Shown here: positions 1 to 14,685 of the stretch, piece after piece
How positions within the stretch are numbered: the stretch's first letter is position 1
Layout: every line of letters begins with the position of its first letter
Assembly: GCF_026768455.1 (NCBI RefSeq)
Contig: NZ_JAPPVQ010000015.1
Coordinates: forward strand, 1-64,000
DNA: 64,000 bases
Source: Candidatus Nitrosotenuis cloacae
Lineage (GTDB): Archaea; Thermoproteota; Nitrososphaeria; Nitrososphaerales; Nitrosopumilaceae
Direction of reading: 5' to 3'
The notes under the pieces: generated by a model
The model's database searches: none
What the model saw: the letters and a program-made list of their open reading frames with translations, nothing else
What the model was told of the DNA's origin: nothing
Program-made: the position numbers and the translations under genes

Positions 1-37
1 AAATAAAAAAGACATTCCTAGGCAGTAGCTAGGAATG
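1..37 (-). terminator. Hairpin plus T-tract terminator of the small membrane protein gene
   Basis: Inverted repeat CATTCCTA (13-20) / TAGGAATG (30-37) with a 9-nt loop overlaps the end of the small minus-strand gene. On the minus strand it is followed by a T-rich run (complement of 1-10). This fits a transcription terminator, although archaea can terminate on T-runs alone. Confidence 0.5.
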
Positions 38-152
38 CCCCGATTCCGGCACCCACTCCTATTCCAAGGACGAAAAACAATGCGTCCCAGGCCATGACCT
101 TCTTGAATGGGGCTCGAACTTGGTAGTTCCAGTAACTTTGTTTTGTTTGCAT
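18..152 (-). CDS. Small single-span membrane protein (44 aa), function unknown
   Basis: An ATG (150-152) opens a 44-codon frame ending in TAG (18-20). The first 20 residues are polar and basic (MQTKQSYWNYQVRAPFKKVM). The rest is one hydrophobic helix rich in Gly and Ala (FFVLGIGVGAGIGAFLATA), so a single transmembrane segment with the N-terminus probably inside is likely. A hairpin with a T-run lies at the stop codon. The clean codon use and the terminator argue that it is a real gene. I do not recognise the family; small helices like this are often subunits of membrane complexes, but nothing here shows that. Confidence 0.6.
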   Translation of the reverse strand: MQTKQSYWNYQVRAPFKKVMAWDALFFVLGIGVGAGIGAFLATA

Positions 153-247
153 ATCTTACATGTATTGTGACAAATTCATAGAGTATCGTCAGCTGACATT
201 ATGATAACTAAGCTTGGTTGTTGATTGATAAAATTGGGTGTGGAAGG

Positions 248-1375
248 CTAGTCGTCTTCGTGCCTTTCCTTCTTCTTGTCCTTGTCTTCCTTCTTGTCCT
301 TGTCTTCCTTCTTTAGCTCTTTCTGGTCTTTCTTGAACTCCTTGATGTCTTCCTTCATCTGTTTTTCCGCCTTTTTGATCTCTTTTTCTACCGTCTTCAT
401 TGTGCGCTTGACATCCTTGACGTCGTATTTTTCGATGATCTTTGCCTTTTGTGCGTCCCTTACCGCAGTCTTTGTGGCCTCTCTAAAGTCCTTGAATTGT
501 TGCTGGAACTGCTTTCGTGCTTCCTTGTACTTTTCTTTTATCTCGTTTAGCAATTCCCTGCAGTCGTCGCGAATCTGCTTTCGTTGGGTGTAGTTTGCAT
601 TCTGAGCCTTGTCGTTGCATTCCCTGATCACCTTGACGGTCTCATCACGCTGCTGCTTGAAAAGCTCGTTTCGCTTGTGCACAAAGTCAGATACTGCATG
701 TCCAAAGTTATCCCTGTCAAACGGGCTGCCTGCAGTAGAGTTTGTCTTGGCTGTCACGTTTGCCGAAAACGCGCCCAGTCCGATGCTGTTCCATGCGGCA
801 ATGCGATATGTCTGCTGTGTCATCGGCTTGAGGTTGCTGTCGGTGTATGTCGTCTTGTTGTTTGCCGTATTCTGTACCAGGGTGGTGCCGTTTCTTTGTA
901 TTTGGTATCCTGTAATGTCGGATCCACCGTCACTTGGTGCGTTCCATGATATCTTGGCAGTCGTTGTTGTGGTTGTGACCGTCACACCGGTTGGAGCTGA
1001 CGGTATTGACAGCGTGGTGGCTGATGCGACATTTGACGGACTGGATGCACCTGCATCATTTAGGGCCGATACCCTGTATGAATAACAGGCACCGCTTATC
1101 AGACCGGTGTTGGAATACGTCGTTGCGGTGTGATTTGCAACCAGAGTTACAAACATCCCGATGCAGCCTGCATCCCATTCTATCTTGTATCCGCTTACTC
1201 CTGACGCTGTTGCGTTAACAGGAGCAGTCCAGCTCAGGTTGATCTGCGTTGCCGATGTAGCACTTGCCGCAAGATTGGTCGGCGGTAGAGGTGTAGTCGT
1301 TTGTGCAAAGATGTGTTCTAGTGGCGTTGCCAGTGTAGCTACGAGGAGAATCATTACGATTCCCAGTTTGTTCAT
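248..1375 (-). CDS. Secreted fibronectin type III protein with charged coiled-coil tail
   Basis: 375 aa. A signal peptide covers residues 1-25 (hydrophobic core IVMILLVATLATP, likely cut after HIFAQ). Two fibronectin type III domains follow at about 29-120 and 124-213; both show the NLSWTAP/ISWNAPSDGG and tyrosine-corner (YSYRVSALN, YRIAAWNSIG) signatures. From about 240 to the end the chain is a highly charged Lys/Glu/Asp coiled coil that finishes in a low-complexity DKKEDKDKK run. FN3 domains mediate protein or glycan contacts at the cell surface, so an adhesive or S-layer-associated role is inferred. No membrane anchor is visible at the C-terminus. The gene stands alone, with proline dehydrogenase upstream on the same strand. 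Confidence 0.75.
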   Translation of the reverse strand: MNKLGIVMILLVATLATPLEHIFAQTTTPLPPTNLAASATSATQINLSWTAPVNATASGVSGYKIEWDAGCIGMFVTLVANHTATTYSNTGLISGACYSYRVSALNDAGASSPSNVASATTLSIPSAPTGVTVTTTTTTAKISWNAPSDGGSDITGYQIQRNGTTLVQNTANNKTTYTDSNLKPMTQQTYRIAAWNSIGLGAFSANVTAKTNSTAGSPFDRDNFGHAVSDFVHKRNELFKQQRDETVKVIRECNDKAQNANYTQRKQIRDDCRELLNEIKEKYKEARKQFQQQFKDFREATKTAVRDAQKAKIIEKYDVKDVKRTMKTVEKEIKKAEKQMKEDIKEFKKDQKELKKEDKDKKEDKDKKKERHEDD

Positions 1376-1423
1376 TGATCAAAGTCGTGATTTTTTGTAT
1401 TTAACGTTCGGGTAGAATTCCTA

Positions 1424-2296
1424 CTATGCCCTGTGGCGTAAGACAAAGGAGCTTCCCAAAAGGAGTATGTTCCTCTTTCGCTCCTTTAACCTGCGGATGG
1501 AATATGGAAGCCAGTTTGTCCCATATGGGATGTATTCTGCAAGACTGAAGCCGTTTTTCACCAGGCCAGGCTTCATCTCATCGCGAATCCCGCGGAGCAT
1601 CTGGAACTCGAATCGGCGCGTATGTTTTTTTGAGAGCTTAATGGCATCTTCAATCATCCTGGAATCATGTGTGGCGATCCCAAATTCGTTACCTCCCTCA
1701 AAGAGCATTCTCATCATCTTCCGATAGTTACAGTCCACCTTCTCCCTTGACTTGTGCGCGATTCTGGCGTTCTCTCTGTATGCGCCCTTTACCAGGCGCA
1801 CCTTTGCGCCCACTGCCAGCAGATCTGCAAGGTCTTTTTCTGTGCGAAGCAGGTTGGCCTGCAAGGCGATCCCCAGCCTCTCATATCGCGCGAACAGCTT
1901 CTGATATATCTCAATAGTGTCGTCCGTGTGATCCGAGGACTCCATATCGATCCAAACAAACGTCTGTGAGGCGGACGCTGCCCTGATTAGCAACTCGAAA
2001 TTACGTACGCACTCTTTGGTGCTTCGGGACATGCCTATTTGCGTGGGCTTGATGGAAATTCCACCGAGAACCTTCCATTTTCTAAAAGAGGACATAATTG
2101 CCCCATACTCATCTACAGTCTTGCATATGATCTGTTTTGATGTGTGGTATTCGCCAAGTCTGTTTATTATCACGCTCATCCCGTTCTTGTACGAGTCCTT
2201 TGCAGCAGACAAAGCATCTTCCATCGTATCTCCAGCAATCCACTGCTTTGCAACCCCAAAGAGGATCTTCTCCATTACCTGAGTGCCAGATACCAA
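1424..2296 (-). CDS. putA: Proline dehydrogenase
   Basis: 290 aa, the length of a monofunctional proline dehydrogenase (FAD-dependent oxidation of proline to pyrroline-5-carboxylate). Diagnostic segments of the PRODH TIM barrel are present: RLVKGAYRE in the middle, FEFQMLRGIRDEM, and the C-terminal substrate-binding helix EYIPYGTNWLPYSIRRLKER with its Tyr and paired Arg. The start may be the ATG eight codons in (2275, MEKILFG), because the first seven residues look unlike the family. No pyrroline-5-carboxylate dehydrogenase lies nearby. The downstream gene encodes the FN3 surface protein and appears unrelated. Confidence 0.85.
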   Translation of the reverse strand: MVSGTQVMEKILFGVAKQWIAGDTMEDALSAAKDSYKNGMSVIINRLGEYHTSKQIICKTVDEYGAIMSSFRKWKVLGGISIKPTQIGMSRSTKECVRNFELLIRAASASQTFVWIDMESSDHTDDTIEIYQKLFARYERLGIALQANLLRTEKDLADLLAVGAKVRLVKGAYRENARIAHKSREKVDCNYRKMMRMLFEGGNEFGIATHDSRMIEDAIKLSKKHTRRFEFQMLRGIRDEMKPGLVKNGFSLAEYIPYGTNWLPYSIRRLKERKRNILLLGSSFVLRHRA

Positions 2297-2336
2297 TCAC
2301 ATTGCATGTGTTTTTCCTGCGTAAAAATTTTGGCGC

Positions 2337-2939
2337 TCAGAAGTGGTCTGTCAATACGACATCCCTTAGTGGTAGCTGTCCGCCGCGTGGTGCTGCCTCC
2401 TTTACTGCCTTTCCTATGGCCACCATCATGCAGATCATGTGGTCCTCGGGCAGATTGATCACCTCTGCCACCCGTGCCGGGTCAAAGCCGATCATCGGGC
2501 ACGAATCATACCCCATCGACTTTGCCGCAAGCATTATCGTCTGGGCAGCCATACCGCATGACCTGAGGCACTCGTCTCGCTGCAGGTCGTTGCGTCCCTC
2601 GTAAAACTTGATGATCGACGGCACGATGTAGTCTCTGACCTCCTTTGGCGCATTTTTCCAGTATCTGGCAGGCTCTTTTTTCCATGCCATCAGATCCCCG
2701 CACAATATCACCAGCATTGATGCGTCTTTTACTTGAGGCTGGCTCCAGGACGCTGCATGAATCTTTGAGCGCAATTCGCGGTCCTTTACCACAACAAATC
2801 GCCAGTTCTGGATGTTGTACGAGGTGGGGGAAAGCACCGCCAATGACAAAATCTTGTTTGCCTCCTCGTCGGTAAACCTGTACTGAGAATCAAAATGTTT
2901 TACTGCGCGGCGTCTCTCTATTGCCGTAAACGTATCCAC
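2337..2939 (-). CDS. Nitroreductase-family FMN-dependent oxidoreductase
   Basis: 200 aa. The N-terminus MDTFTAIERRRAVKHFD carries the RRAV(K/R) FMN-phosphate-binding motif of nitroreductases. It is followed by LSPTSYNIQNWRFVVV (the usual 'apSs.N.QpW.fvvv') and a C-terminal SMGYDSCPMIGFDPARV segment. Family members are homodimeric NAD(P)H:FMN oxidoreductases acting on nitro compounds, quinones or flavins; the physiological substrate cannot be told. It lies divergent from the riboflavin operon with only a short gap, so a link to flavin metabolism is possible but not shown. Confidence 0.85.
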   Translation of the reverse strand: MDTFTAIERRRAVKHFDSQYRFTDEEANKILSLAVLSPTSYNIQNWRFVVVKDRELRSKIHAASWSQPQVKDASMLVILCGDLMAWKKEPARYWKNAPKEVRDYIVPSIIKFYEGRNDLQRDECLRSCGMAAQTIMLAAKSMGYDSCPMIGFDPARVAEVINLPEDHMICMMVAIGKAVKEAAPRGGQLPLRDVVLTDHF

Positions 2940-2988
2940 GAATCAGAACCCTGTGCGCGTCTTTTAAGTATTATTTGCGGCAAATATG

Positions 2989-3000
2989 ATTTTATATCAT
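2989..3000 (+). promoter_or_regulatory. TATA box of the riboflavin synthase gene
   Basis: A TTTATATC core (2991-2998) sits 20 nt before the TTG at 3019. This matches the TATA-to-start spacing of many genes in this window and supports TTG 3019 over the upstream in-frame ATG at 2986, which would overlap the box. Confidence 0.5.
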
Positions 3001-3018
3001 AAAACTGTCAGGACTTTG

Positions 3019-3609
3019 TTGTTCACCGGAATAGTGGAAGGCATGGGGCGCGTGCTAAAGATCCAGAAAAACACCAACCGGAAGAGCGCCATAAAGATGA
3101 CAGTTGATCTTGGCAAGCACGCAAAGGGGCTCAAGATAGGGCAAAGCGTTGCATTAAACGGGGTGTGCCTCACAGTGACAGGAATTGCAAAATCAAAATG
3201 CAATTTTGAGATGATAGACGAGACGATGAAAAAAACGGATCTAGGAAACCTCAGAGAGGGCGGCATAGTAAACATCGAGCGAAGTCTAAAGGTGGGTGAC
3301 AGGATGGAGGGGCACTTTGTTCTTGGCCACGTCGACGGCGTCGGTACAATAAAAAAAATCGAGGCAAAGCCAAAAGAGGTCAAGGTGTGGCTGGAGATAC
3401 CAAAACACCTAAGCCGCTTCGTAGTACAGAAAGGATCAATTGCAGTTGATGGGATAAGCCTCACAGTAGTTGATGTGAAAAAAAATCTTGCATCAGTGTG
3501 TCTAATTCCGCACACGGTTGATGTGACAAACTTTCAGACAAGAAAGGCAGGCGACAAGGTTAATATTGAAACCGACATTCTTGGAAAATATCTTCTAAAA
3601 CAGGAATGA
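3019..3609 (+). CDS. ribE: Riboflavin synthase (two lumazine-binding domains)
   Basis: Catalyses dismutation of two 6,7-dimethyl-8-ribityllumazine molecules to riboflavin. The protein begins MFTGIVEGMGRV when TTG 3019 is used, the canonical N-terminus of the alpha-type synthase. An in-frame ATG at 2986 would add eleven atypical residues. The two lumazine-binding repeats are clear: FTGIVEGMG...SVALNGVCLTV, then MEGHFVLGHVDGVGTI...GSIAVDGISLTVV. About 196 aa, normal for the family. Use of the bacterial/eukaryal alpha-type enzyme rather than the archaeal RibC type is notable. It is the first gene of the riboflavin cluster; ribB follows 72 nt later with its own promoter. Confidence 0.9.
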   Translation: MFTGIVEGMGRVLKIQKNTNRKSAIKMTVDLGKHAKGLKIGQSVALNGVCLTVTGIAKSKCNFEMIDETMKKTDLGNLREGGIVNIERSLKVGDRMEGHFVLGHVDGVGTIKKIEAKPKEVKVWLEIPKHLSRFVVQKGSIAVDGISLTVVDVKKNLASVCLIPHTVDVTNFQTRKAGDKVNIETDILGKYLLKQE

Positions 3610-3637
3610 ATTACTACCAGAATAGTGGTAATTACTA
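3609..3637 (+). promoter_or_regulatory. Direct repeat AATTACTA upstream of ribB, candidate operator
   Basis: The octamer AATTACTA occurs at 3609-3616 and 3630-3637, 21 bp apart (two helical turns). The span also contains an imperfect inverted repeat (ACC at 3616-3618 against GGTAATT at 3627-3633). It lies just upstream of the ribB TATA box. A regulator bound on one DNA face is a reasonable inference. Confidence 0.35.
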
Positions 3638-3649
3638 ATTTTCTAGTAA

Positions 3650-3660
3650 ACCTTATAATG
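3650..3660 (+). promoter_or_regulatory. TATA box of ribB
   Basis: CTTATAAT (3652-3659) preceded by AAC (BRE-like), 22 nt before ATG 3682. This supports a leaderless ribB mRNA and an internal promoter within the riboflavin cluster. Confidence 0.55.
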
Positions 3661-3681
3661 ACGCGGAAGCGAATTTCAATT

Positions 3682-4356
3682 ATGAGCCTTGACGATGCAA
3701 TCACCTCGCTGAAACGCGGCGAGTTTGTCCTCCTTTATGATTCCGGAGGGCGGGAAAACGAGGTGGACATGGTAGTTGCCGCCCAGTTTGTCACACCCGA
3801 ACACATCGCGAGAATGAGGCAGAACGCGGGTGGACTCATATGCCTTGCAATCGACAGCTCCTTTGCAAAATCACTAAATCTGCAGTATATGCACAACATT
3901 CTGTCCAAATCTTCCGACTTTGATGCAGACTCTAGACAGATGATAATGGGAACTGCACCATACGGGGACCACCCGACATTTTCGATCTCAATTAACCACA
4001 AAAAGACCTTTACTGGGATAACAGATCTAGACAGGGCGCTTACCATCAAGGAGATGGCCAACTTATACGGATCAGATGACCAAAAAAAAGAGTTTACGGC
4101 ATCCTTCAAGACGCCGGGCCACGTTCCGTTACTACTTGCATCAAGTGGCCTTTTGGCAAGCAGGCAGGGGCATACTGAAATGTCCGTGTACATGGCAGAG
4201 CTGGCCAAGCTTGTACCGGTAACGGCAATCTGCGAGATGATGGACTCGCAGACATATTCCGCACTTACTGTGGAAAAGGCCCAAAAATTTGCAAAAGAAA
4301 ACGCCATCCCGTTTGTAGACGGCAAAGAGCTCTTGGAATTCTCAAAGGTGCGCTAG
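3682..4356 (+). CDS. ribB: 3,4-dihydroxy-2-butanone-4-phosphate synthase
   Basis: Converts ribulose 5-phosphate to the four-carbon donor for lumazine synthase. The protein starts MSLDDAITSLKRGEFVLLYD; the frame is open further upstream, but the TATA box at 3650-3660 excludes the earlier ATGs. Family motifs are present: the acidic loop DSGGRENEVDMVVAAQFVT (metal/substrate site), AGGLICLAID, ITDLDRALTI ('aaDRa.Ti') and TPGHVPLLLASSGLL with the RQGHTE catalytic segment. About 224 aa, a single-function enzyme with no fused GTP cyclohydrolase II domain, in keeping with the archaeal route via ArfA found two genes downstream. Confidence 0.92.
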   Translation: MSLDDAITSLKRGEFVLLYDSGGRENEVDMVVAAQFVTPEHIARMRQNAGGLICLAIDSSFAKSLNLQYMHNILSKSSDFDADSRQMIMGTAPYGDHPTFSISINHKKTFTGITDLDRALTIKEMANLYGSDDQKKEFTASFKTPGHVPLLLASSGLLASRQGHTEMSVYMAELAKLVPVTAICEMMDSQTYSALTVEKAQKFAKENAIPFVDGKELLEFSKVR

Positions 4357-4358
4357 AC

Positions 4359-4772
4359 TTGAACATTGCCATAGTCACTGCAGAGTTTAACGAGGAGATA
4401 ACATCGAGGATGCTAGAGATTGCACTGGAAAAGGCAAAATCGCTAAAGATCAACGTCACACACTCCTGCAAGGTGCCCGGCTCGTATGACATGCCGTTAT
4501 TGGTTGACTCGCTGCTCCAAAAAAAGGACGTAGACGCAGTAGTCACGCTTGGCACCATAATAAAGGGCCAGACAAAGCACGACGAGGTGATTGCAAACTC
4601 CACCGCAAAATCGCTTACCGAACTGTCCCTAAAGTACAAAAAACCGGTCTCGCTTGGAATATCCGGACCTGGCATGCAGGAACGCCACGCGTACGCACGA
4701 ATCAGGCCCGTTGCTGAAAGAGCAGTAGAAGCCGTACTCAAACTCTCAGGCGAGCTGGAGAGAATACGATGA
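4359..4772 (+). CDS. ribH: 6,7-dimethyl-8-ribityllumazine synthase
   Basis: 137 aa from a TTG start two nt after the ribB stop. It condenses the ribityl-pyrimidine amine with dihydroxybutanone phosphate. Signature segments: TAEFNEEI (substrate ring pocket), CKVPGSYDMPLLV (the 'vPG..E.P' helix), TLGTIIKGQTKHDEVIA (phosphate and catalytic His region) and SLGISGPGMQERHAYAR near the end. These forms usually assemble as pentamers or icosahedra. It is translationally coupled with ribB upstream and overlaps arfA by 4 nt downstream (ATGA). Confidence 0.9.
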   Translation: MNIAIVTAEFNEEITSRMLEIALEKAKSLKINVTHSCKVPGSYDMPLLVDSLLQKKDVDAVVTLGTIIKGQTKHDEVIANSTAKSLTELSLKYKKPVSLGISGPGMQERHAYARIRPVAERAVEAVLKLSGELERIR

Positions 4773-5524
4773 CTCAGATCACAATAATCAAGATAACCGA
4801 GTACGGGCCGTGGACCTTGACTCTTGGCAGCGACAGGGAGCACGAGCTGCAAATGCTTCAGGCAGGCATGTACAGGGAGGTGCAAAAGCTATTCTCCGAG
4901 AAAAACGCACTCGTATTCTCAAACAGATTTGACGAGTTCTTTGTGGTGTCAAACGGCCTCTCCCTGCAAGACCACATTGAGATTCAAAAAAAACTGGCAA
5001 AGTTTTCCTCACTAAAGCTTGCAATCTCAATAGGATACGCAGATACACCGTTTGAGGCAAACCTCAAGGCATTTGAGGGAAAAAAGACGCCCGTAATACT
5101 TGACAAGGATCTCACCATCTACGGATTCGTAGACGGCAGATCCGATCAACTGGTAACGATAATGCACTTTGACGTTGAAAATCTGACATCTCGCCGCAAG
5201 GTGCACTCGCCATACGAGATAACATCTACCATATTCCGGTTATACTCAAGAATGTCCGACTTTTTCTTGCAAAAAAACTCACTGGCGTTTTTCATGGGAG
5301 GAGACAACTTTATGGTAATATCCGGCGCGGATCACCGAGAGAACGCCAGAGAGTTCCTCGACGTGGCAAAAAATGAGTTTGACATCACGTTAAATTGCGG
5401 CATAGGCACTGGCAGGACCGGCAGGGAGGCAGCCAAGCTTGCTACAAACTCGCTTGACACGATACGCGAAAACCGCAAGTCCGGAAACGAAAGATCGCAA
5501 ATTTACGAGATGTCATGCTCTTAA
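4769..5524 (+). CDS. arfA: GTP cyclohydrolase III (archaeal riboflavin/F420 entry enzyme)
   Basis: 251 aa, the length of the GCH III family typified by MJ0145. These enzymes hydrolyse GTP to the 5-formylamino pyrimidine (FAPy) and are related to nucleotide cyclase/GGDEF palm folds. Two repeat halves are visible. The metal/nucleotide motifs are LVTIMHFDVENLT (about 128-140), FMGGDNFMV (GGDN at 177-180) and the preceding NRFDEFFVVSNG. It starts ATG inside the ribH stop (ATGA overlap) and itself overlaps the next gene by 10 nt, so it belongs to a coupled operon. Confidence 0.9.
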   Translation: MTQITIIKITEYGPWTLTLGSDREHELQMLQAGMYREVQKLFSEKNALVFSNRFDEFFVVSNGLSLQDHIEIQKKLAKFSSLKLAISIGYADTPFEANLKAFEGKKTPVILDKDLTIYGFVDGRSDQLVTIMHFDVENLTSRRKVHSPYEITSTIFRLYSRMSDFFLQKNSLAFFMGGDNFMVISGADHRENAREFLDVAKNEFDITLNCGIGTGRTGREAAKLATNSLDTIRENRKSGNERSQIYEMSCS

Positions 5525-6693
5525 AAAACATCAGCGTCCTTTATGGAAAAAACCTGAAATACATCCAGTCGACAAACCTGCAAATCAAAAACCGCTGCTT
5601 TACTGGAGCCACGGGAAGCCACGCTGGCCAGAAACTAGACTGCGAGGGTCTACTACTCGTTCCAGGATTTGTGAATATGCATACACATGTGGGCGACTCG
5701 ATAGCAAAGGACGCCGCACTGGCAGGCTCTGTGGACAACAAGATACATCCTGTTCTGGGCATAAAGCCACGCGTGCTCAAAAACACGCACCCAGAGCACC
5801 TTGCAACATTCATGGAAAATAGCTGCCGCTCTATGATCCGTAAGGGAATCACGACGTTCGTTGACTTTAGAGAAGGCGGACTGGACGGCATACTGTTGCT
5901 CAAAAAAGCAATAGCGCGCACTCCTATTCGCAGTGTGATCCTTGGCAGGCTGGAACACTATCAGGACAAAAAGCAAATACGAAGCAACACTCCACTCACA
6001 TCCGAGCACAAAAGAGTGCTAGACCGAATTCTCAAATCGTGCGATGGCATCGGCGTTAGCGGGGCAAATGAGAACAGTGACTCGGTACTGAAATACTATT
6101 CCACAACCAATAAACTCAGAGCAATACACAGCTCAGAAACAATCGAGAGCACCAGGCGCTCAAGGCAGATTGCAAAAAAATCAGAAACCTCTCGGGCGCT
6201 GACTTTGAAGCCGCACTTTCTGGTGCACATGACGCACGCAACACAGTCCGATCTCTTGCTTGCGGCAAAAAAGACCCGGGGAATAGTCATATGTCCTAGG
6301 GCAAACGCGGCGCTTGCCGAGGGCATACCTGACTTTGCACGCATGACAAAGGCCGGATGCACCGTTGCCATGGGAACGGACAATGTTATGATAAACTCGC
6401 CTGACATGTTCCGCGAAATGGACTATTTGTGGAAGGTTCACATGGGAACTCACAAAAACAGAATCGACCCAAAGGAGATCCTAAGTATGGCAACCGTAAA
6501 CGGCGGAACGATACTTGGCAAAAAAATCGGCTCAATTCAGGACGGATACCTTGCAGACGGATTCTTCGTAGACAAGCATGCCTTGGATCTGGAGCCGATG
6601 CACAACCCATACGCGGCAATAGTCCAGAGGGCAACCGAATCCGCAATAAGGGCAGTTATGATAGGGGGAGAACTGGTACATGGCAGCATCTAG
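5515..6693 (+). CDS. Amidohydrolase-superfamily protein; candidate deaminase or deformylase of riboflavin synthesis
   Basis: 392 aa, metal-dependent amidohydrolase TIM barrel. Visible ligands: HTH at 56-58 (MHTHVGDS), HSSE at 205-208, His238 or His241 (VHMTH), and Asp289 in GTDNVMINSPDMF. An H-x-x-E motif between the HxH and the last His, with no carboxylated Lys, is the layout of the deaminase branch (cytosine, adenosine, SAH or chlorohydrolase type). The gene sits between arfA and arfC, overlapping both (10 and 14 nt), so a role in the same pathway is strongly implied: either removal of the formyl group (ArfB step) or the pyrimidine deamination whose archaeal enzyme is not established. The family and motifs are seen; the substrate is inference. 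Confidence 0.8.
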   Translation: MLLKNISVLYGKNLKYIQSTNLQIKNRCFTGATGSHAGQKLDCEGLLLVPGFVNMHTHVGDSIAKDAALAGSVDNKIHPVLGIKPRVLKNTHPEHLATFMENSCRSMIRKGITTFVDFREGGLDGILLLKKAIARTPIRSVILGRLEHYQDKKQIRSNTPLTSEHKRVLDRILKSCDGIGVSGANENSDSVLKYYSTTNKLRAIHSSETIESTRRSRQIAKKSETSRALTLKPHFLVHMTHATQSDLLLAAKKTRGIVICPRANAALAEGIPDFARMTKAGCTVAMGTDNVMINSPDMFREMDYLWKVHMGTHKNRIDPKEILSMATVNGGTILGKKIGSIQDGYLADGFFVDKHALDLEPMHNPYAAIVQRATESAIRAVMIGGELVHGSI

Positions 6694-7330
6694 GCCGCGA
6701 GTGATTCTCAGTGCGGCAGTTAGCATTGACGGCAAAATCGCTACAAGGCGTGGCGATTCTGCACTGTCCTCAAAAAAAGACAAGATACGGCTGCACAAGG
6801 TAAGATCCAAAGTAGACGCAATACTTGTCGGAAGAAACACGGTGCGCGTGGATGACCCGTTACTTACGGTAAGATACGCAAGAGGCAAAAACCCGACAAG
6901 AGTCGTTCTTGACTCCAGGGCGCGAATCTCCACAAAATCGCAGATAATCAAGACTGCAAAAAACGTCCCGACGATAATTGCAGTGTCTGCAAAGGCGCCA
7001 AAGAAGAACCTGCAAAGGCTAGAGGAGCATTCGACCAAAATCATAATCGCAGGACGCAGTAACATCGACCTAAAACGGCTGCTCACACTGCTGAAAAAAG
7101 AAAATATCAAGACCGTCCTTGTAGAGGGCGGCGGTACGCTGAACTGGGAGTTTATCCGTCAGGGACTGGTCGATGAGCTGATTGTGACAATTACGCCGCA
7201 CTTGGTAGGTGGAAGGGACGCAGTCACACTAGTGGAAGGTGTAGGATTTGCAAAGATTGCAGATTCGCTGAAACTGAATCTGCGTAAAATAACAAAACAG
7301 GGAGACGAAGTTGTCCTGCACTATATCTGA
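6680..7330 (+). CDS. arfC: 2,5-diamino-6-ribosylamino-pyrimidinone 5'-phosphate reductase
   Basis: 216 aa, equal to the reductase half of bacterial RibD or yeast Rib7; there is no N-terminal deaminase domain. Motifs include LSAAVSIDGKIAT (substrate loop), DAILVGRNTVRVDDPLLTVR, and LVEGGGTLNWEFIRQGLVDEL (the 'eGG..l...l..g.vDE' NADPH motif). It uses NAD(P)H to reduce the ribosyl group to ribityl before deamination, as known for archaea and fungi. Last gene of the riboflavin operon; it ends 10 nt into the convergent TFE gene (7321-7330). Confidence 0.92.
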   Translation: MAASRPRVILSAAVSIDGKIATRRGDSALSSKKDKIRLHKVRSKVDAILVGRNTVRVDDPLLTVRYARGKNPTRVVLDSRARISTKSQIIKTAKNVPTIIAVSAKAPKKNLQRLEEHSTKIIIAGRSNIDLKRLLTLLKKENIKTVLVEGGGTLNWEFIRQGLVDELIVTITPHLVGGRDAVTLVEGVGFAKIADSLKLNLRKITKQGDEVVLHYI

Positions 7331-7839
7331 CGTCTCATGTCGTTTCTGATGTCTGTGATCTTTGATTCGAGAGCTTTTTTCAGCTTGTCGTTCTTCTTTA
7401 GGTTCACGACGCTGCCGCACCTTGGGCACTTGAAGAACTGCTCCAATGCCGTCTCAAACGTGATCCGGGGGCAGTCCTCATTTCCACAATGGTAGAACTG
7501 TGACGAGTTCTCATAGTCCAGTCTTTGCTGGAGTCGTTCTGTGATCTTTTTCTTCTGGTTCTCGATAAAGTTCTCAACCTCGTCCTTTCTTGAACGCCAC
7601 CTGTACACAAACCAACCCTTTCGCTCGTCTTTTACCCTGATTCCTGTGATCAGCGCCTTGCCAAAGAGATCGTAGAGCACCTTTCTTACCATGTTGATTC
7701 TAAGTCCTGTAGAGCTTGCAATCTCCTCATCAGTCGCATCCTCTGCTTTGAGCAGCGCGCGAGCAACCTTGAGGTATTCGTCGCCTCCAATCATTGCCGA
7801 AATTCTTACAAATGGATCTTCGTATGACTCGACCAACAA
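7321..7839 (-). CDS. tfe: Transcription factor E (TFE alpha)
   Basis: 172 aa, archaeal homologue of the TFIIE alpha N-terminal half; it stabilises the open RNA polymerase complex. The extended winged helix occupies about residues 20-100 (DEEIASSTGLRINMVRKVLYDLFGKALI...GWFVYRWR). A zinc ribbon follows with C-x4-C (HCGNEDC) and CPRC. A short basic tail ends the protein. It starts with TTG (ATATTGTTGG) and lies last in the operon PhoU-like/HflX/Trm56/TFE. It converges on arfC with a 10-nt overlap. Confidence 0.9.
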   Translation of the reverse strand: MLVESYEDPFVRISAMIGGDEYLKVARALLKAEDATDEEIASSTGLRINMVRKVLYDLFGKALITGIRVKDERKGWFVYRWRSRKDEVENFIENQKKKITERLQQRLDYENSSQFYHCGNEDCPRITFETALEQFFKCPRCGSVVNLKKNDKLKKALESKITDIRNDMRRQI

Positions 7840-7865
7840 TATCCGGTCGCCTACTGCATATTTAA

Positions 7866-8393
7866 TCAGTCGGTTTTTGTTACTACTTGTTTGCCTTTTT
7901 TTGTGGGCACAATCTCGAGTCGGGCATTGTCATATTTTACGTCAAACTGTCTTCCCTTCTGAATCCGGTCCAATACAATTGCAAGGGCGGAGATCTCAGA
8001 GTGCGGCTGGCTTCCGACTGCCACATTGTAATCTGCAGACTCGTAAACATCCCGCGGCACCTTCTCTGCTCCGACCACAACCAGAATGTCCTTCTCCTTG
8101 CTTAGTTTTTCCGCAACGTCGTTGATGTTCTCGCCGTACATTGTCAAATGAACTATCTTCACAGATTCTTTTTTCTTTGACTTGAGCACCTTGCGCCAGT
8201 CCTCGATGTATTCCACTTCGAAATTGCTACCCCAAGACCTGTTTACCTTGCTTACCGTGTCCTTGATCTCGGGATTTATCTCGTTCATGAATATCTTTGA
8301 TGCGCCAAACGCACGTGACACAAGCGCAACGTGTGTTGTAACGCGGTCGTCCCGCACCACCCTCTGCCCGATTCTCAATACCTCAATCGTCAA
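7866..8393 (-). CDS. trm56: tRNA (cytidine(56)-2'-O)-methyltransferase
   Basis: 175 aa, SPOUT-class enzyme that 2'-O-methylates C56 in the T-loop of archaeal tRNAs. The N-terminus [28 protein letters not shown] is the strongly conserved start of aTrm56 (RD.R..THv...aRAfGA). The knot region includes [26 protein letters not shown] and [14 protein letters not shown]. It overlaps hflX by 11 nt and precedes tfe by 26 nt, so all are probably co-transcribed. Confidence 0.9.
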
Positions 8394-9507
8394 ACTTTTT
8401 CAAATCCGGTCTCTTTGGAATCTCTTTTGTCGGCGGCTTGCGCTCAGAGATCATCCTGTTTACAAGCTCCATGAGCTTTGTGATATTCTCCTTGGTGATT
8501 GCTGAAACCGGCACCCACTTTTTGTTGTCTGCCAGTCCCAAATAGTCCGCCTTTTGGAGTATTTCCTCAGGGCTTATCAAATCCGACTTGTTTAGTGCAT
8601 AAACTACCTTTTCCTGGTCGACATCCAGGTCCGACATGGTTCGCAGGCAGCTGCGGAATTTCTTTTTGAGATTAATCATGGGGTCACTTATGTCGATTAC
8701 CACAATCACTGCGTCCGCAAATCTCAACTCCTCAAGTGTGGACTTGAACGCCTCAATCATGTATGCTGGAAGCTTGCTGATGAATCCTACCGTGTCTGAG
8801 ATGAGGACCGACTCGTCTCCTATTGGCATCTTTCTGGTTGTGGTGGAGAGCGTGGTAAACAAAGTGGGACTCTCCTCCTTGGTCTCGCCTGTGAGCACGT
8901 TGAACAGGGTGGTCTTTCCAGCCGATGTGTACCCTGCAAGGGATATTGTCTTGAATCCGACTCGCCTTCTTGCCTCTCTGTGCAGCGCCCGCTGCCTGCC
9001 CATCTTCTCAAGCTTCATCTTCACGCTTTTCATCCTGTTCTGGATGTCGTTATAGTACGTGTCGACCTCGTACATTCCAATTCCCATAAATCCTGGCTGC
9101 TCTCCCATCTTGGCAAGTCGCACCTTTTCCTTGGCACGTGACATCTCGTACCTAAACTGTGCAAGCTTGATCTGAAGACTGGATTCGTGGCTTGTGGATC
9201 TCCTTCCGAAAATCTCCAAGATGAGCGACTCCCTGTCCACAATGTTCATCTTTAGAGTGGAAGCTAGGTTGTAGTTCTGGCTAGGCCTTAGTACCTCGTC
9301 AAAAATTATCACATCTGGCTTTACCTTTGCGACAATCTCCTTGAGCTCCTCTACCTTTCCCTCCCCTAGGCCATACTTTGCCTTGTCTAGGAACTTTTGT
9401 CTCATGATCTTTTCTATCTTGTATCCGGCTGCGTCACAGAGGCCTATTGCCTCTTTGATCGAGTCCTCATTGTCATAAGTAATTAGTATCGCACTCATCA
9501 TGATCAC
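8383..9507 (-). CDS. hflX: GTPase HflX
   Basis: 374 aa. The N-terminal HflX domain includes [14 protein letters not shown] and [15 protein letters not shown] coiled-coil linker follows, then an Obg-class G domain with G1 GYTSAGKTT (192-200), G3 DTVGF (238-242, preceded by LISD) and G4 NKSD. It binds the large ribosomal subunit and is linked to ribosome splitting and rescue under stress. The real start may be the second or third Met ([11 protein letters not shown], 9498). It ends inside trm56 and lies next to the AbrB-PhoU gene with no gap. Confidence 0.9.
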
Positions 9508-10551
9508 CTACTTTTTTCTGAGCATCTTCTCTATGTTCATGTTTAGTACGATTTCCGCAATATCGCTTGCGTATTCTGCAATTCTGGTGATGTTTTCCGA
9601 CATTCTCCTTATCCTATATGCCTCTTCCTCGTCCTTGATTGACTTGATGGCTTCTAGGATCTTCTTCTCGTACCTTGTGACCTCAGATGCCTTTTTTATC
9701 GCAAGCTCTGCTTGGTTAAAGTCGCCCTTGAACAAAGCAAGGCATGCCTGATCCAGCACCGTAATGGAGAACTCGTTGAGATCGTCGATCTTCTCCATAA
9801 CGTCCTTTCTGACGGATTTTTTGAACTCTAGGAGATCTTTTGCAATCAACGTTGCGTGGTCGCCTGTTCGCTCGATGTTTTTTACAATGAGTCTGTATCC
9901 AAGACATTGCCTTGCGTTCTCAAATCCCATATCCTTTAGCATGTGCTCGTTTTGAATGGCAATCTTGAGCTGCCTGATAATGTAAAACCCGAATCTGTCC
10001 ACCTCGTCGTCACTGTCGATTACCTCTCTTGCCAGGTCGAGATTCTCCTCCCTGACGGCAAGCAGCGCGTCCTTTAGCATTGATTTTGCCAGGTGCAGCA
10101 TTCTCTTGAACGCCCCGTCCACTGATAACTCGAGCAAATTCACAAGAACCTGAACCGTTATGCCTTCTACCGAATCCGATATTATTTCGGCCCCCATCAG
10201 CATCCCCTTTACTGCCGACTTGATCGAGTTCCTCTGTCCTGGCTGCAGCCTGTCCGCCTTTGGCTTTACCTGAATCGTCTTGTATCCAAGAAAGTATAGT
10301 GAGACAAGCTTTCTTACTATGGTTGCATTGTCGTCGTCCCTGTCGATTTCCAGCACCGCCTCTTCCTGCTGGACATACTTTGACTGCTCCTTGGTTGGAA
10401 GTATCTTGAGTGCGGCCTTTCCCTCGCGAGTGATGGTGATCTGGTCTCCCTGTTTTAGCCCAAGATCCAATACCCACTGCTTTGGAAGTGAAACGATGTA
10501 TGACGACTTGCCAGTAAACTGGATTCGCCTAGTCTCCTCGCGCTCCGACAT
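9508..10551 (-). CDS. AbrB/SpoVT-PhoU fusion, putative phosphate-type regulator
   Basis: 347 aa. Residues 5-55 form a swapped-hairpin AbrB DNA-binding domain (RRIQFTGKSSYIVSLPKQWVLDLGLKQGDQITI). Two PhoU-like helical bundles follow (about 110-345; VNLLELSVDGAFKRMLHLAKSM, VDRFGFYIIRQL, MSENITRIAEYASDIAEIVLN). PhoU bundles bind metal clusters and sensor proteins, and the DNA-binding head suggests a direct transcriptional role. A paralogue (37068-38105) lies beside pst. Here the gene heads an operon with hflX, trm56 and tfe. Confidence 0.85.
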   Translation of the reverse strand: MSEREETRRIQFTGKSSYIVSLPKQWVLDLGLKQGDQITITREGKAALKILPTKEQSKYVQQEEAVLEIDRDDDNATIVRKLVSLYFLGYKTIQVKPKADRLQPGQRNSIKSAVKGMLMGAEIISDSVEGITVQVLVNLLELSVDGAFKRMLHLAKSMLKDALLAVREENLDLAREVIDSDDEVDRFGFYIIRQLKIAIQNEHMLKDMGFENARQCLGYRLIVKNIERTGDHATLIAKDLLEFKKSVRKDVMEKIDDLNEFSITVLDQACLALFKGDFNQAELAIKKASEVTRYEKKILEAIKSIKDEEEAYRIRRMSENITRIAEYASDIAEIVLNMNIEKMLRKK

Positions 10552-10607
10552 GATATATGGTGGCGGTTTCTTCTATATAGATTATTGATTTGGCATATAC
10601 CTCTTCA

Positions 10608-10616
10608 CTTTTAATA
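10608..10616 (+). promoter_or_regulatory. TATA box of the PUA/NAC operon
   Basis: CTTTTAATA ends 22 nt before the GTG at 10639, the usual spacing here for a leaderless start. Confidence 0.5.
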
Positions 10617-10638
10617 ACAGATATCTGAAAAGAATTTT

Positions 10639-11103
10639 GTGGATCCAATTACAAAGCTAAAGTGCACAGTTGATGCGCTCTTTGGAAACGGAGTGTCAAA
10701 AAATCTGCCAAAGAATCTCGATATCACATTTTCAAGAAAAAACGGGAGGATACGTGAGGTGTATCACGACGGGCAACTGCTATGCACTCTGCGAATCGAC
10801 GGCGGCCTTGCAATCAGTCCATACTTTGCTCAGATCCTACTGAAAAACAAAAAATTCAAGCAAAACTGCGTCGAGATAGACGACGACTCTAGGCCGTTTG
10901 TGGCAGACGGAAAATCCGTCTTTTGCAAGCACGTGGTGTGGGCGGGGAAAAACATACTGATTGGCGCAGACGTTCCGGTGCTGCACCAGAACAAAGTGAT
11001 TGCAGTCGGCAGGGCCATCGTAAACCCGAAAATGATGATGGAGCTAAAACGCGGAGTCGCAGTAAAAGTCAGGGATAGTTTAAAATCTAGTTTGGAGGAA
11101 TAG
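10639..11103 (+). CDS. PUA-domain RNA-binding protein
   Basis: 154 aa from a GTG start placed by its TATA box. The C-terminal half (about 75-150) is a PUA domain: FVADGKSVFCKHVVWAGKNILIGADVPVLHQNKVIAVGRAIVN, with the glycine-rich turn and 'aVGra' strand. The N-terminal half resembles the pre-PUA region of archaeal PUA proteins. PUA domains bind structured RNA such as tRNA or rRNA; no catalytic domain is attached. The NAC gene follows 6 nt downstream, which suggests co-transcription and a role close to translation. Confidence 0.75.
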   Translation: MDPITKLKCTVDALFGNGVSKNLPKNLDITFSRKNGRIREVYHDGQLLCTLRIDGGLAISPYFAQILLKNKKFKQNCVEIDDDSRPFVADGKSVFCKHVVWAGKNILIGADVPVLHQNKVIAVGRAIVNPKMMMELKRGVAVKVRDSLKSSLEE

Positions 11104-11109
11104 ACTGAC

Positions 11110-11451
11110 ATGATGCGCGGCGGTAATCGCGAAATGCGAAGAATGCTGGACAGGATGGGGCTTGACATGAAGGAGCTTCCGAATGTCCAGGAGGTCATAA
11201 TCAAGACCGACAAAAAAGAGATCATAATATCAAAGCCTGCCGTCACAGAGATGAAGTCCAAGGACAACTCGATCTTTCAGGTAATTGCAAACAGCTATGA
11301 GGAAAAGGAACTGGAAACGCCCGTATTCTCGGAGGAAGACATCCTGCTGGTGTCCCAGCAGGCAAACGTGTCTGCCGAGGTTGCGGCAAACGCCCTAAAG
11401 GAGACAAAGGGCGATCTGGCGCGGGCCATCCTGCTTTTGAGCACCAAATGA
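11110..11451 (+). CDS. nac: Nascent polypeptide-associated complex protein
   Basis: 113 aa, the archaeal homodimeric NAC. The N-terminal half has the NAC barrel (MKELPNVQEVIIKTDKKEIIISKPAV...FQVIA). The C-terminal 45 residues form a UBA three-helix domain (FSEEDILLVSQQANVSAEVAANALKETKGDLARAILLL). It binds nascent chains at the ribosome exit. Preceded by the PUA protein gene on the same transcript. Confidence 0.92.
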   Translation: MMRGGNREMRRMLDRMGLDMKELPNVQEVIIKTDKKEIIISKPAVTEMKSKDNSIFQVIANSYEEKELETPVFSEEDILLVSQQANVSAEVAANALKETKGDLARAILLLSTK

Positions 11452-11487
11452 ATAGTTTATTTAAAGGAATTAGGCGGTTTTAGCTAT

Positions 11488-11841
11488 ATGAAGGAGACCG
11501 CAGTTCAGGCACCGGTTGCAGATTCCAGAGTCAGCAAGATAATCAAGTCATTATCGGAGCTTGAAAACGACATCGACTCGCTAAACTCCAAGGTCGCCGA
11601 CATGAAAAAATCGCTAAACTCCAAGGCCATAAAGGAGATCGACTCCCTAAAGGACCAGGTAACCAAGATGGCAATCAAGGAGGCAGAATCACTGATTGCA
11701 GAAACCAAGGCACGAGCCGAGCAGCAGTCAAAAAAGATTGCCGCAGACGGCCAGGCAAAACTGGAAAAGCTAAGGTCCACAATCGACTCCAAGTTCAATG
11801 AAGCAGTTGACAGCGTTGTGTCAACTATTCTAAAGCCGTAA
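11488..11841 (+). CDS. Coiled-coil protein, possibly peripheral-stalk-like
   Basis: 117 aa, almost wholly alpha-helical heptad sequence with many Lys, Glu and Ala residues (SLSELENDIDSLNSKVADMKKSL; EAESLIAETKARAEQQSKKI). It has its own TATA box (TTTATTTAAAG, about 11455-11465) 22 nt before the ATG. The middle resembles H/G peripheral-stalk subunits of A/V-type ATP synthases, but such helices are easily confused with other coiled coils and no ATP synthase gene is adjacent. No certain function. Confidence 0.6.
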   Translation: MKETAVQAPVADSRVSKIIKSLSELENDIDSLNSKVADMKKSLNSKAIKEIDSLKDQVTKMAIKEAESLIAETKARAEQQSKKIAADGQAKLEKLRSTIDSKFNEAVDSVVSTILKP

Positions 11842-11843
11842 AT

Positions 11844-11852
11844 CCTTAAATT
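11844..11852 (+). promoter_or_regulatory. TATA box of the RNase-H-fold gene
   Basis: CCTTAAATT ends about 22 nt before the in-frame codon ATC at 11874, the spacing seen at many other leaderless genes here. The first in-frame ATG is at 12021, 169 nt away. Confidence 0.45.
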
Positions 11853-11873
11853 CGCAAAACACTACCGAACAGT

Positions 11874-12527
11874 ATCAGCACACTTGCAGATTGCCGTATC
11901 GGAGTTGCCACCACCCACGGAAGGTCATATTTTCAGTTCGTTAAAGCGCTCAAATTCCTGAACCTGCAGTATGACTCTATAATCCCGGAGGAGATCCAGA
12001 CCTATTCCGGTAGCATAATCATGACTACCGAGGCGGAATCGCCCAAGTCGTCGGCGCGTCCAATTCTGTACGAGGAGATCCTAAAGGAAGATCCTACCGT
12101 GATACAGGGCCTCATAATAGAAAAGATTGATTCCGGACTAAACCAGAACGAGCTGGTCATAGGAATTGACCCGGGGCAGCGAATCGGGCTTTCCGTGACG
12201 TATCTTGGCAAGGAGATTGAGCGGGGACTGTACACCTCGCCTGAGGACATAGCAAATCACATTGCAAAGATTCTCGGCGGACTAAGGGCGGAAAGGAAGA
12301 TAATCAAAATAGGAAACGGAAGCATGAAGGTTGCAAAGGAGATAACCGGACTTTTGAATCTAAAGTTCTGCTCGCATTTTGAGCTGGAATTTGTGGACGA
12401 GCACAGAACTACAAGAAAAATTAAAAACTTCAACAAGCGCGGCGAGCGTGACATGCTGTCCGCAAAATTTATAGCTCAAAGAGAGGGCTACCGCCGTTTC
12501 GTCCTGCCGCTCTCAAGAACCGGATAA
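11874..12527 (+). CDS. RuvC/YqgF-like RNase H-fold protein with probable non-ATG start
   Basis: From ATG 12021 the frame gives 168 aa, but it is open and clearly coding from 11850: ADCRIGVATTHGRSYFQF and FLNLQYDSIIPEEIQTY precede that ATG. No ATG, GTG or TTG lies in frame upstream. The codon at the position predicted from the TATA box is ATC (11874), giving 217 aa. The C-terminal 120 residues look like an RNase H fold: LVIGIDPGQRIGLSV (first-strand Asp), KIGNGSMKVAKEI, FELEFVDEHRTT (second acidic strand) and RGERDMLSAKFIA (final Asp). A Holliday-junction or RNA nuclease-like role is inferred; the function is not established. Confidence 0.65.
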   Translation: MSTLADCRIGVATTHGRSYFQFVKALKFLNLQYDSIIPEEIQTYSGSIIMTTEAESPKSSARPILYEEILKEDPTVIQGLIIEKIDSGLNQNELVIGIDPGQRIGLSVTYLGKEIERGLYTSPEDIANHIAKILGGLRAERKIIKIGNGSMKVAKEITGLLNLKFCSHFELEFVDEHRTTRKIKNFNKRGERDMLSAKFIAQREGYRRFVLPLSRTG

Positions 12528-12761
12528 ACCGCTAACTAAAATTACCCTTTTACCTCAAGTTTTGTGCGTAACATTTAGTAATGTTGTGCGTAAAAAAATC
12601 GTTAGATATTTATACAACTTTACGAGTTTTTGTCAAAATGATCGAGCTGATCCGCAAGATCAAGCCAAATTTTCGTAAAATTTTCGTAAAAATTATGTAA
12701 AAAATATGGATCCATCCTTAAATATTTGCGATTCCTATAACATATTACAAAGTGATGAAAT
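12528..12761. other. AT-rich intergenic stretch with promoter of the Cys-rich protein
   Basis: No gene is seen. It contains a repeated TTTTCGTAAAA-type segment (about 12670-12690) and two TATA-like boxes: CCTTAAATA (about 12717-12725) and CCTATAACATA (about 12733-12743). The second lies about 20 nt before ATG 12762. Confidence 0.4.
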
Positions 12762-13004
12762 ATGACGTGTAAGGGAATATGCTCCAGATACAAGGCTCAG
12801 AAGCCAGTAGGAACTGGACGTTACGCTTCAGGTCAAAGACGTTGTCAGATTTGTGAAATCTTCATCAAATGGGAAGGACTTTGGTGCCCATGCTGCGGTT
12901 ACAGATTGAGAACAAAACCACGAAATCTCAAATACAAAGCCAAACTGCGTGCCAGAGTTGAACAAGAAGCCCAAGAAGCTGAAGCAATAGCAATAAAGGC
13001 TTAA
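12762..13004 (+). CDS. Small Cys-rich zinc-finger protein of thaumarchaeal type
   Basis: 80 aa with Cys at 3, 7, 28, 31, 42, 44 and 45 (MTCKGIC; CQIC; CPCC). The tail is very basic (YRLRTKPRNLKYKAKLRARVEQ). This fits one or two zinc knuckles plus a nucleic-acid-binding tail. Proteins of this layout are frequent in Nitrosopumilales genomes. Likely a DNA- or RNA-binding regulator, but no function is established from the sequence. Confidence 0.75.
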   Translation: MTCKGICSRYKAQKPVGTGRYASGQRRCQICEIFIKWEGLWCPCCGYRLRTKPRNLKYKAKLRARVEQEAQEAEAIAIKA

Positions 13005-13021
13005 GTCTCACCTAGCAAGTA

Positions 13022-13357
13022 ATGTCAAGTTCTGACCACAGAGTAATTACTGTGGAAACAGAAAATCGGAAATTCGATGTCGACATTGAAAAGTACGATA
13101 ACGGTTTTTTTATATCAATTTCAGAGGGCGCCAGAAAGCTTGGTGCCATGATAATGTCTATCGGAACTGGTCCGTCGCCAAGCTCATCAACAATAATTCC
13201 TACTAGAAACGACTCTATTTTTCTAAAGTTGATCTCCCAAAAGATCGCATCCGAGTTCAGGGGCGTATGCATAGTGTCACTTTCCACGCAACAAGAGCTC
13301 GGATCAAATGCTGGCAAGGTTCTAATTGAGAAAATAACTGAGGCAGTCAGAGAATGA
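13022..13357 (+). CDS. Proteasome assembly chaperone 3/4-like small protein
   Basis: 111 aa. The order of segments FFISISEGARKLGAMIMSIG, STIIPTRNDSIFLKLISQKIASEFRGVCIVSLS and KVLIEKITEAVRE resembles PAC3/PAC4 (PSMG4)-type chaperones: a first beta hairpin, a conserved Thr/Ser-rich loop, a helix, then a strand and a C-terminal helix. This is pattern recognition only. It overlaps the UbiD-like gene by 4 nt (ATGA), so the two are coupled. Confidence 0.55.
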   Translation: MSSSDHRVITVETENRKFDVDIEKYDNGFFISISEGARKLGAMIMSIGTGPSPSSSTIIPTRNDSIFLKLISQKIASEFRGVCIVSLSTQQELGSNAGKVLIEKITEAVRE

Positions 13358-14685
13358 CGGACATTCGTGCATTCATAAACCAGACAAAAAAGCTCGGACA
13401 GCTCTCGGTAGTAAAAAAGAAGGTTTCAACAAAATACGAGATTGCGGCAGTGACGGCAAAGGCCGATGGCGCAAACGCGGTCCTGTTTGAGAATATCAAG
13501 GAAAGCAAGCTCCGACTGGTCGCAAATCTAGTTGGTACCAGGGCAAGATTTGCATCAGCAGTAGGAGCAAAAGAGTCCACGATCCATCAAAAAGTGATAT
13601 CTGCAATAGAGCACACTAAAAAGCCAAAAATTACGATCAATGCCAAGTTCTTTGAGAACAAGTCAAGGGATCTGTCGGTGTTGCCAATTGTGACTCACTT
13701 TGAAAAAGAGTCAGGCCCGTTCATCACGTCGTCGATTATCTACGCGCAAAACCCTGAGAAAAAGACGCAAAACTCCTCCTTTCACAGAATGATGCCAATA
13801 GACAAGACCCATTTTTCAATCAGGATGGTGGAAGGCAGGCACCTTCACCGCTCATTTATGGACGCAAAACATCATGGCGAGGACCTCAAAGTGGCAATAA
13901 CGGTGGGGGTCCATCCGGCAGTGTCCATTGCAGGAGCATATCAGGCAGAGTGGGGTGAGGACGAGCTAGAGATTGCAAACTCTCTGCTTGGGGGCAAGCT
14001 CATACTGACAAAACTTCCATACTCTGGGAGAGCCGTTCCTTCCGGCACCGAGATTGTCATGGAAGGCCGAATCCTTGCAGACAAAACGCACAAGGAATGG
14101 ATGGTCGAGATGCTGCGCACCTATGACTATGCAAGAGAGCAGCCAGTCTTTGAATTAGAGTCACTCTACTTTAGGAACAACGCGATATTTCACGACATAC
14201 TCTCAGGCTATGGGGAGCATAGGCTGCTCATGGGAATGCCAATTGAGGCAAAGCTGAACCGCGACGTCAAAAAAGAGTTCCCGCAGACAAGGCAGGTCGT
14301 GATGTCAAACGGGGGATGCAACTGGCTTCATGCAGTGGTGCAGATAGCAAAGAAAAAAGACGCCGACGGACAAAAGGCAATCGAAAAAACATTTGCCGCG
14401 CACCGCTCCCTTAAGATGGTCACGGTAGTGGATGAGGACATCGACCCCTCCGATGCGGTGGCAGTAGAGTACGCAATGGCGACAAGATTCCAGGCAGACA
14501 AGAACCTCACCGTTATCGAAAAAGTCCGCGGCTCAAGCTTAGACCCGTCAAGTGATCAAAAAAATCTGCTCACCACAAAACTTGGAATCGATGCGACAAG
14601 GCCGCTCCATAAAAGGCCAGAAGGGTTTGAGATTGCAAAAATCCCCGGACTGGAAAAAACCTCGCTCAAAAACTATCTAAAATAA
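13354..14685 (+). CDS. UbiD-family decarboxylase, possible anhydromevalonate-phosphate decarboxylase
   Basis: 443 aa, full length for UbiD. Family segments include HFEKESGPFITSSIIYAQNPE, HRMMPIDKTHFSIRMVEGRHLHR, VGVHPAVSIAGAYQAEWGEDELEIA, AVPSGTEIVMEGRIL and SNGGCNWLHAVVQIAK. UbiD enzymes use prenylated FMN. In archaea a UbiD homologue acts in the modified mevalonate pathway (trans-anhydromevalonate 5-phosphate decarboxylation); this is the likeliest role, since these archaea make isoprenoid lipids. The partner dehydratase and UbiX are not in the window, so the substrate is inferred. Confidence 0.85.
   Translation: MTDIRAFINQTKKLGQLSVVKKKVSTKYEIAAVTAKADGANAVLFENIKESKLRLVANLVGTRARFASAVGAKESTIHQKVISAIEHTKKPKITINAKFFENKSRDLSVLPIVTHFEKESGPFITSSIIYAQNPEKKTQNSSFHRMMPIDKTHFSIRMVEGRHLHRSFMDAKHHGEDLKVAITVGVHPAVSIAGAYQAEWGEDELEIANSLLGGKLILTKLPYSGRAVPSGTEIVMEGRILADKTHKEWMVEMLRTYDYAREQPVFELESLYFRNNAIFHDILSGYGEHRLLMGMPIEAKLNRDVKKEFPQTRQVVMSNGGCNWLHAVVQIAKKKDADGQKAIEKTFAAHRSLKMVTVVDEDIDPSDAVAVEYAMATRFQADKNLTVIEKVRGSSLDPSSDQKNLLTTKLGIDATRPLHKRPEGFEIAKIPGLEKTSLKNYLK

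Follow-up and report, generated by a model that had tools for sequence, protein, structure and literature searches.

A predicted amidohydrolase-type pyrimidine deaminase in the riboflavin operon of Candidatus Nitrosotenuis cloacae

An amidohydrolase gene (AH) within the riboflavin operon of Candidatus Nitrosotenuis cloacae very probably encodes the pyrimidine deaminase of the archaeal riboflavin pathway, acting on the product of the reductase ArfC. The gene lies in a 64,000-nt stretch of genomic DNA, referred to here as the window, and deamination was the first hypothesis of a preliminary description of that DNA. The hypothesis gains strong support from operon conservation, the phylogenetic profile, the lack of any deaminase of the RibD type, the clustering of AH with F420 genes where RibH is missing, active-site residues, and the fold, and from these a metal dependence, a substrate, and a reaction can be proposed. 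AH would act on 2,5-diamino-6-ribitylamino-4(3H)-pyrimidinone 5'-phosphate, the compound made by ArfC, which carries an isocytosine ring; hydrolysis at the 2-amino group would give the uracil derivative and ammonia. A phosphatase would act next to yield 5-amino-6-ribitylaminouracil, which would then be passed either to RibH for riboflavin or to CofG/CofH for F420. Between ArfC and 5-amino-6-ribitylaminouracil, only deamination and dephosphorylation are left; placing deamination after ArfC follows published work on the archaeal pathway and would hold if that order applies here.

Operon organization and conserved neighborhood

The operon is a co-directional block, ribE-ribB-ribH-arfA-AH-arfC, at positions 2986-7330 of the window on the + strand. 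It begins with a bacterial-type riboflavin synthase gene, ribE (2986-3609; TIGR00187, 210 bits, over the cut-off), followed by ribB (3625-4356; TIGR00506, over the cut-off) and ribH, encoding 6,7-dimethyl-8-ribityllumazine synthase (4359-4772; TIGR00114, over the cut-off). The arfA gene for GTP cyclohydrolase III (4769-5524; PF05165, 161 bits) precedes AH, an ATG-initiated open reading frame of 392 amino acids at 5515-6693, and arfC (6680-7330) closes the block. ArfC is an archaeal pyrimidine nucleotide reductase that lacks a deaminase domain: it exceeds the TIGR01508 cut-off with 211 bits and matches the RibD profile TIGR00326 at positions 136-342 only. AH had been described as locked between its two neighbors, and the coordinates agree, with a 10-nt overlap at the end of arfA (5524) and a 14-nt overlap at the start of arfC (6680). 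Proline dehydrogenase and nitroreductase genes (1424-2296 and 2337-2939) lie on the strand opposite to the adjoining rib operon. In other Thermoproteota (L048, L054, L157), a RibH-like gene is found between ribB and ribH instead of the bacterial-type ribE.

Gene order across the group, proposed earlier as a check, is strongly conserved. In a collection scan whose patterns were built from rib-associated sequences and are therefore biased to close relatives, all 76 archaeal loci place AH together with a rib gene, and 69 have both arfA and arfC flanking it, which rules out chance placement; most loci without both flanks are explained by contig ends or an insert. The association extends to distant Thermoproteota families, where AH follows a ribB-(riboflavin-synthase-like)-ribH-arfA order (L044, L046, L048, L157), lies next to arfC (L045, L047, L051), or is found near ribH/ribB (L054, L154, L141). 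Loci of family f13, such as L049 and L053, contain AH with no rib neighbor.

Family, active site, and fold

AH matches the amidohydrolase superfamily model PF01979 over its full length (134 bits against a gathering score of 25) and, also over its full length, exceeds the curated cut-off of the NCBIfam equivalog NF005552/PRK07213, "chlorohydrolase" (322.8 against 294 bits). Family profile searches of AH returned no creatininase (PF02633) match and no cytidine-deaminase-type domain. In an alignment of 24 sequences, H56, H58, the H205-S-S-E208 segment, H238, and D289 are invariant, in agreement with the catalytic residues first proposed; H241, included in that proposal, varies. The HxH, HxxE, His, and Asp elements line up with those of TM0936 (1p1m), an S-adenosylhomocysteine (SAH)/MTA deaminase with which AH shares its metal and Glu motif positions. 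This agrees with the suggested assignment to the mononuclear deaminase branch, and AH most likely belongs, as a metal-dependent deaminase, to the COG0402-like branch of amidohydrolases represented by NF005552/PRK07213.

The AlphaFold model of AH is confident (pLDDT 94.2, pTM 0.93), and its Foldseek neighbors are adenosine/SAH deaminases, atrazine chlorohydrolases, the isocytosine deaminase Vcz (7ww2, TMq 0.85), and guanine deaminases; sequence-profile neighbors form the same set. Atrazine chlorohydrolases rank high among these neighbors, and several amidohydrolases with this fold have activities other than deamination, which counts against a deaminase assignment. Vcz and the guanine deaminases share the fold and branch of AH and act on a 2-amino-4-oxo-pyrimidine ring. 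Since the ArfC product has an isocytosine ring, these enzymes show that the fold is capable of such chemistry. These enzymes are nevertheless only ~19% identical to AH or less, and their substrates are free bases rather than the proposed ribityl phosphate.

Five residues, D61, K84, E120, N290, and R372, set the rib-type AH subfamily apart from nine sampled SAH-deaminase-like paralogues, all of which lack them. D61, E120, and N290 are invariant in the alignment across all rib-type members and their bacterial and plasmid homologues, K84 is replaced by Arg in bacterial homologues, and R372 is retained except in L143 and in sequences whose aligned part stops early. One might speculate that K84 and R372 bind the substrate phosphate. 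In the tree, the nine paralogues occupy one side of a branch with 100/100 support and rib-type proteins make up the remainder, with bacterial (100/100) and haloarchaeal-plasmid sequences nested among Nitrososphaeria/Bathyarchaeia-type sequences. The actinobacterial homologues (L092:8001-9266 and L117:7866-9116), which keep the signature residues apart from the K84-to-Arg change, lie near nitrilase-type genes, and the former also near a dihydropyrimidinase gene; they probably function in pyrimidine breakdown. Because these nested homologues sit in a dihydropyrimidinase cluster, a substrate shift has probably occurred within the AH clade, a further point against the assignment. Haloarchaeal homologues on pNRC200 and other plasmids (L137:4875-5894, L136:5983-6999) carry all signature residues and have no rib neighbors.

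Phylogenetic profile and the F420 link

The profile covers 250 genomes, all Thermoproteota, with presence sets defined by E-value, a grey zone adjusted by hand, and a hand-chosen AH threshold for diverged lineages. AH and RibH occur together in 98 genomes, AH only in 3, RibH only in 5, and neither in 144, placing RibH in 98 of the 101 AH genomes. As the genomes are not independent, the associated Fisher p value (5e-59) is descriptive, as are those within the 116 ArfC genomes (97/3/2/14 in the same order, p=2e-13) and by genus within that set (38/2/1/8, p=9e-7). Sixteen ArfC genomes lack AH, and 14 of these also lack RibH; the other two (G070, G134) contain weak, diverged AH matches, the G070 copy keeping D61, K84, E120, and N290 and not R372. 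Two observations count against a deaminase role: three genomes with RibH lack AH (G060, G154, G172), all of them also lacking ArfC, and one genome of 93% completeness (G096) encodes AH and ArfC with neither RibH nor CofH. Separately, in RibH-less archaea, arfC lies beside a TrpD-like phosphoribosyltransferase gene (L150:4062-6843, L156:4581-6662), together with an ArfB-type gene in L150.

Two further genomes (G018, G102) encode AH and ArfC without RibH, and in both the genes run consecutively as AH-arfC-cofG-cofH, the last two being CofG- and CofH-type radical-SAM genes. A Hecatellales locus (L058) has AH-arfC followed by an open reading frame whose start, the part read, is CofG-like. 5-Amino-6-ribitylaminouracil is the common precursor of FO and riboflavin (PMC8498797, PMC3403918), and this arrangement in RibH-less genomes therefore places AH before the two routes diverge. 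AH combines co-occurrence with ArfC and RibH with a place ahead of the riboflavin/F420 branch, as expected of an archaeal ribityl-diaminopyrimidine deaminase. Directly 5' of the four-gene cluster in G018 is a dCTP-deaminase/dUTPase-like gene (PF22769; L172:3162-3725).

Search for another deaminase

A RibD-type deaminase encoded elsewhere in the genome was considered and set aside, as none was found. In this genome and 29 further ones with ArfC, the RibD profile TIGR00326 picks up the reductase half only; matches to the deaminase half across these 30 genomes are few, weak (19-31 bits) and dCMP-deaminase-like, and the sole PF00383 (CDA-family) protein of this genome also looks like a dCMP deaminase. 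Its other amidohydrolases are adenine deaminase-like and dihydropyrimidinase/dihydroorotase-type. In ArfC genomes without AH, no alternative deaminase is evident adjoining arfC. The control genomes of M. jannaschii and S. acidocaldarius have ArfC and NF005552 matches and no PF00383 match. NF005552 is matched by H. volcanii as well as by M. jannaschii; only two, unspecified, of the 14 control genomes exceed its cut-off. A literature search of partial coverage returned no experimentally demonstrated archaeal deaminase for this step, in keeping with the earlier remark that the enzyme following ArfC is not established.

Alternative roles for AH

The second hypothesis of the preliminary description was that AH removes formate from the ArfA product as an alternative ArfB. 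AH does overlap arfA, the window operon has no arfB, and some superfamily members cleave amide C-N bonds. Of the open reading frames listed for positions 1-14000, none was noted as creatininase-like, in line with the statement that ArfB is not visible here. In the genome as a whole, a search for an ArfB homologue identified one creatininase-family (PF02633) protein (G000:C15:101934-102572). Its position beyond the window makes the apparent absence a window-edge effect. This protein matches an ArfB-type gene sharing the AH operon in L057, L059, and L056 (a fragment at a contig end in L056), and another locus (L041) has the order AH-arfC-arfB; the genomic protein and its operon counterparts are, judged from sequence, putative ArfB proteins. 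With a separate ArfB-type gene in this genome and beside AH in other archaea, AH need not be a deformylase, and that candidate function was rejected on the coexistence of the two genes. It would also leave the deaminase gap unfilled and sits poorly with an active site of the HxxE deaminase kind, making it highly unlikely. A 280-residue protein that reads as formyltetrahydrofolate deformylase-like (L004:2178-3020) overlaps the start of the creatininase-family ArfB candidate gene.

Two other readings keep AH as a deaminase. It could deaminate the ArfB product ahead of ArfC, in the bacterial order, with the reductase then taking the deaminated compound; the ring is the same and the arfA-AH-arfC gene order is compatible with either sequence of steps, but archaeal work puts reduction ahead of deamination (PMC3403918; Graupner 2002, as cited in PMC8305020), and we regard this order as improbable. 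Alternatively, AH could stand outside the pathway as a salvage or repair deaminase (guanine, adenosine, or SAH type) that shares its regulation with the flavin genes, a possibility raised by its closest solved structures, which are adenosine, guanine, and isocytosine deaminases. Such a role is exceedingly unlikely, because AH goes with ArfC and RibH throughout the phylum and with CofG/CofH where RibH is missing, and because its subfamily has specific invariant residues that the nine SAH-deaminase-like paralogues lack.

Relation to earlier predictions and implications

PMC8305020 gives candidates for two of the three gaps in the archaeal riboflavin pathway; its Table 6 includes HVO_2483, which shares 34% identity with MJ0699 and is credited there to a prediction for this pathway by Rodionova 2017. 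MJ0699/HVO_2483 and AH have the pathway in common and the M. jannaschii and H. volcanii genomes match NF005552; the 2017 prediction, as cited there, likely concerns the AH family and step. The analysis here adds strong new support to the proposed function. The evident role of NF005552/PRK07213 is riboflavin/F420 synthesis, and its public name, "chlorohydrolase", implies a dechlorination that nothing here supports and may mislead.

The RibD/Rib2 deaminase of the cytidine-deaminase superfamily, proposed to perform the equivalent step, has a fold unrelated to that of AH. We lean towards the view that the D61/K84/E120/N290/R372 subfamily is the general archaeal deaminase for riboflavin and F420, an independent invention in place of the bacterial/eukaryotic cytidine-deaminase-type enzyme, which bacteria subsequently took up to degrade pyrimidines. 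No proven gene was found for the archaeal riboflavin/F420 deaminase step, for which AH provides a single testable candidate, and genomes such as G018 and G102, in which AH and ArfC are kept for F420 without RibH, offer natural test cases. If the assignment is true, one step in making a vitamin would have been solved twice, by unrelated protein folds.
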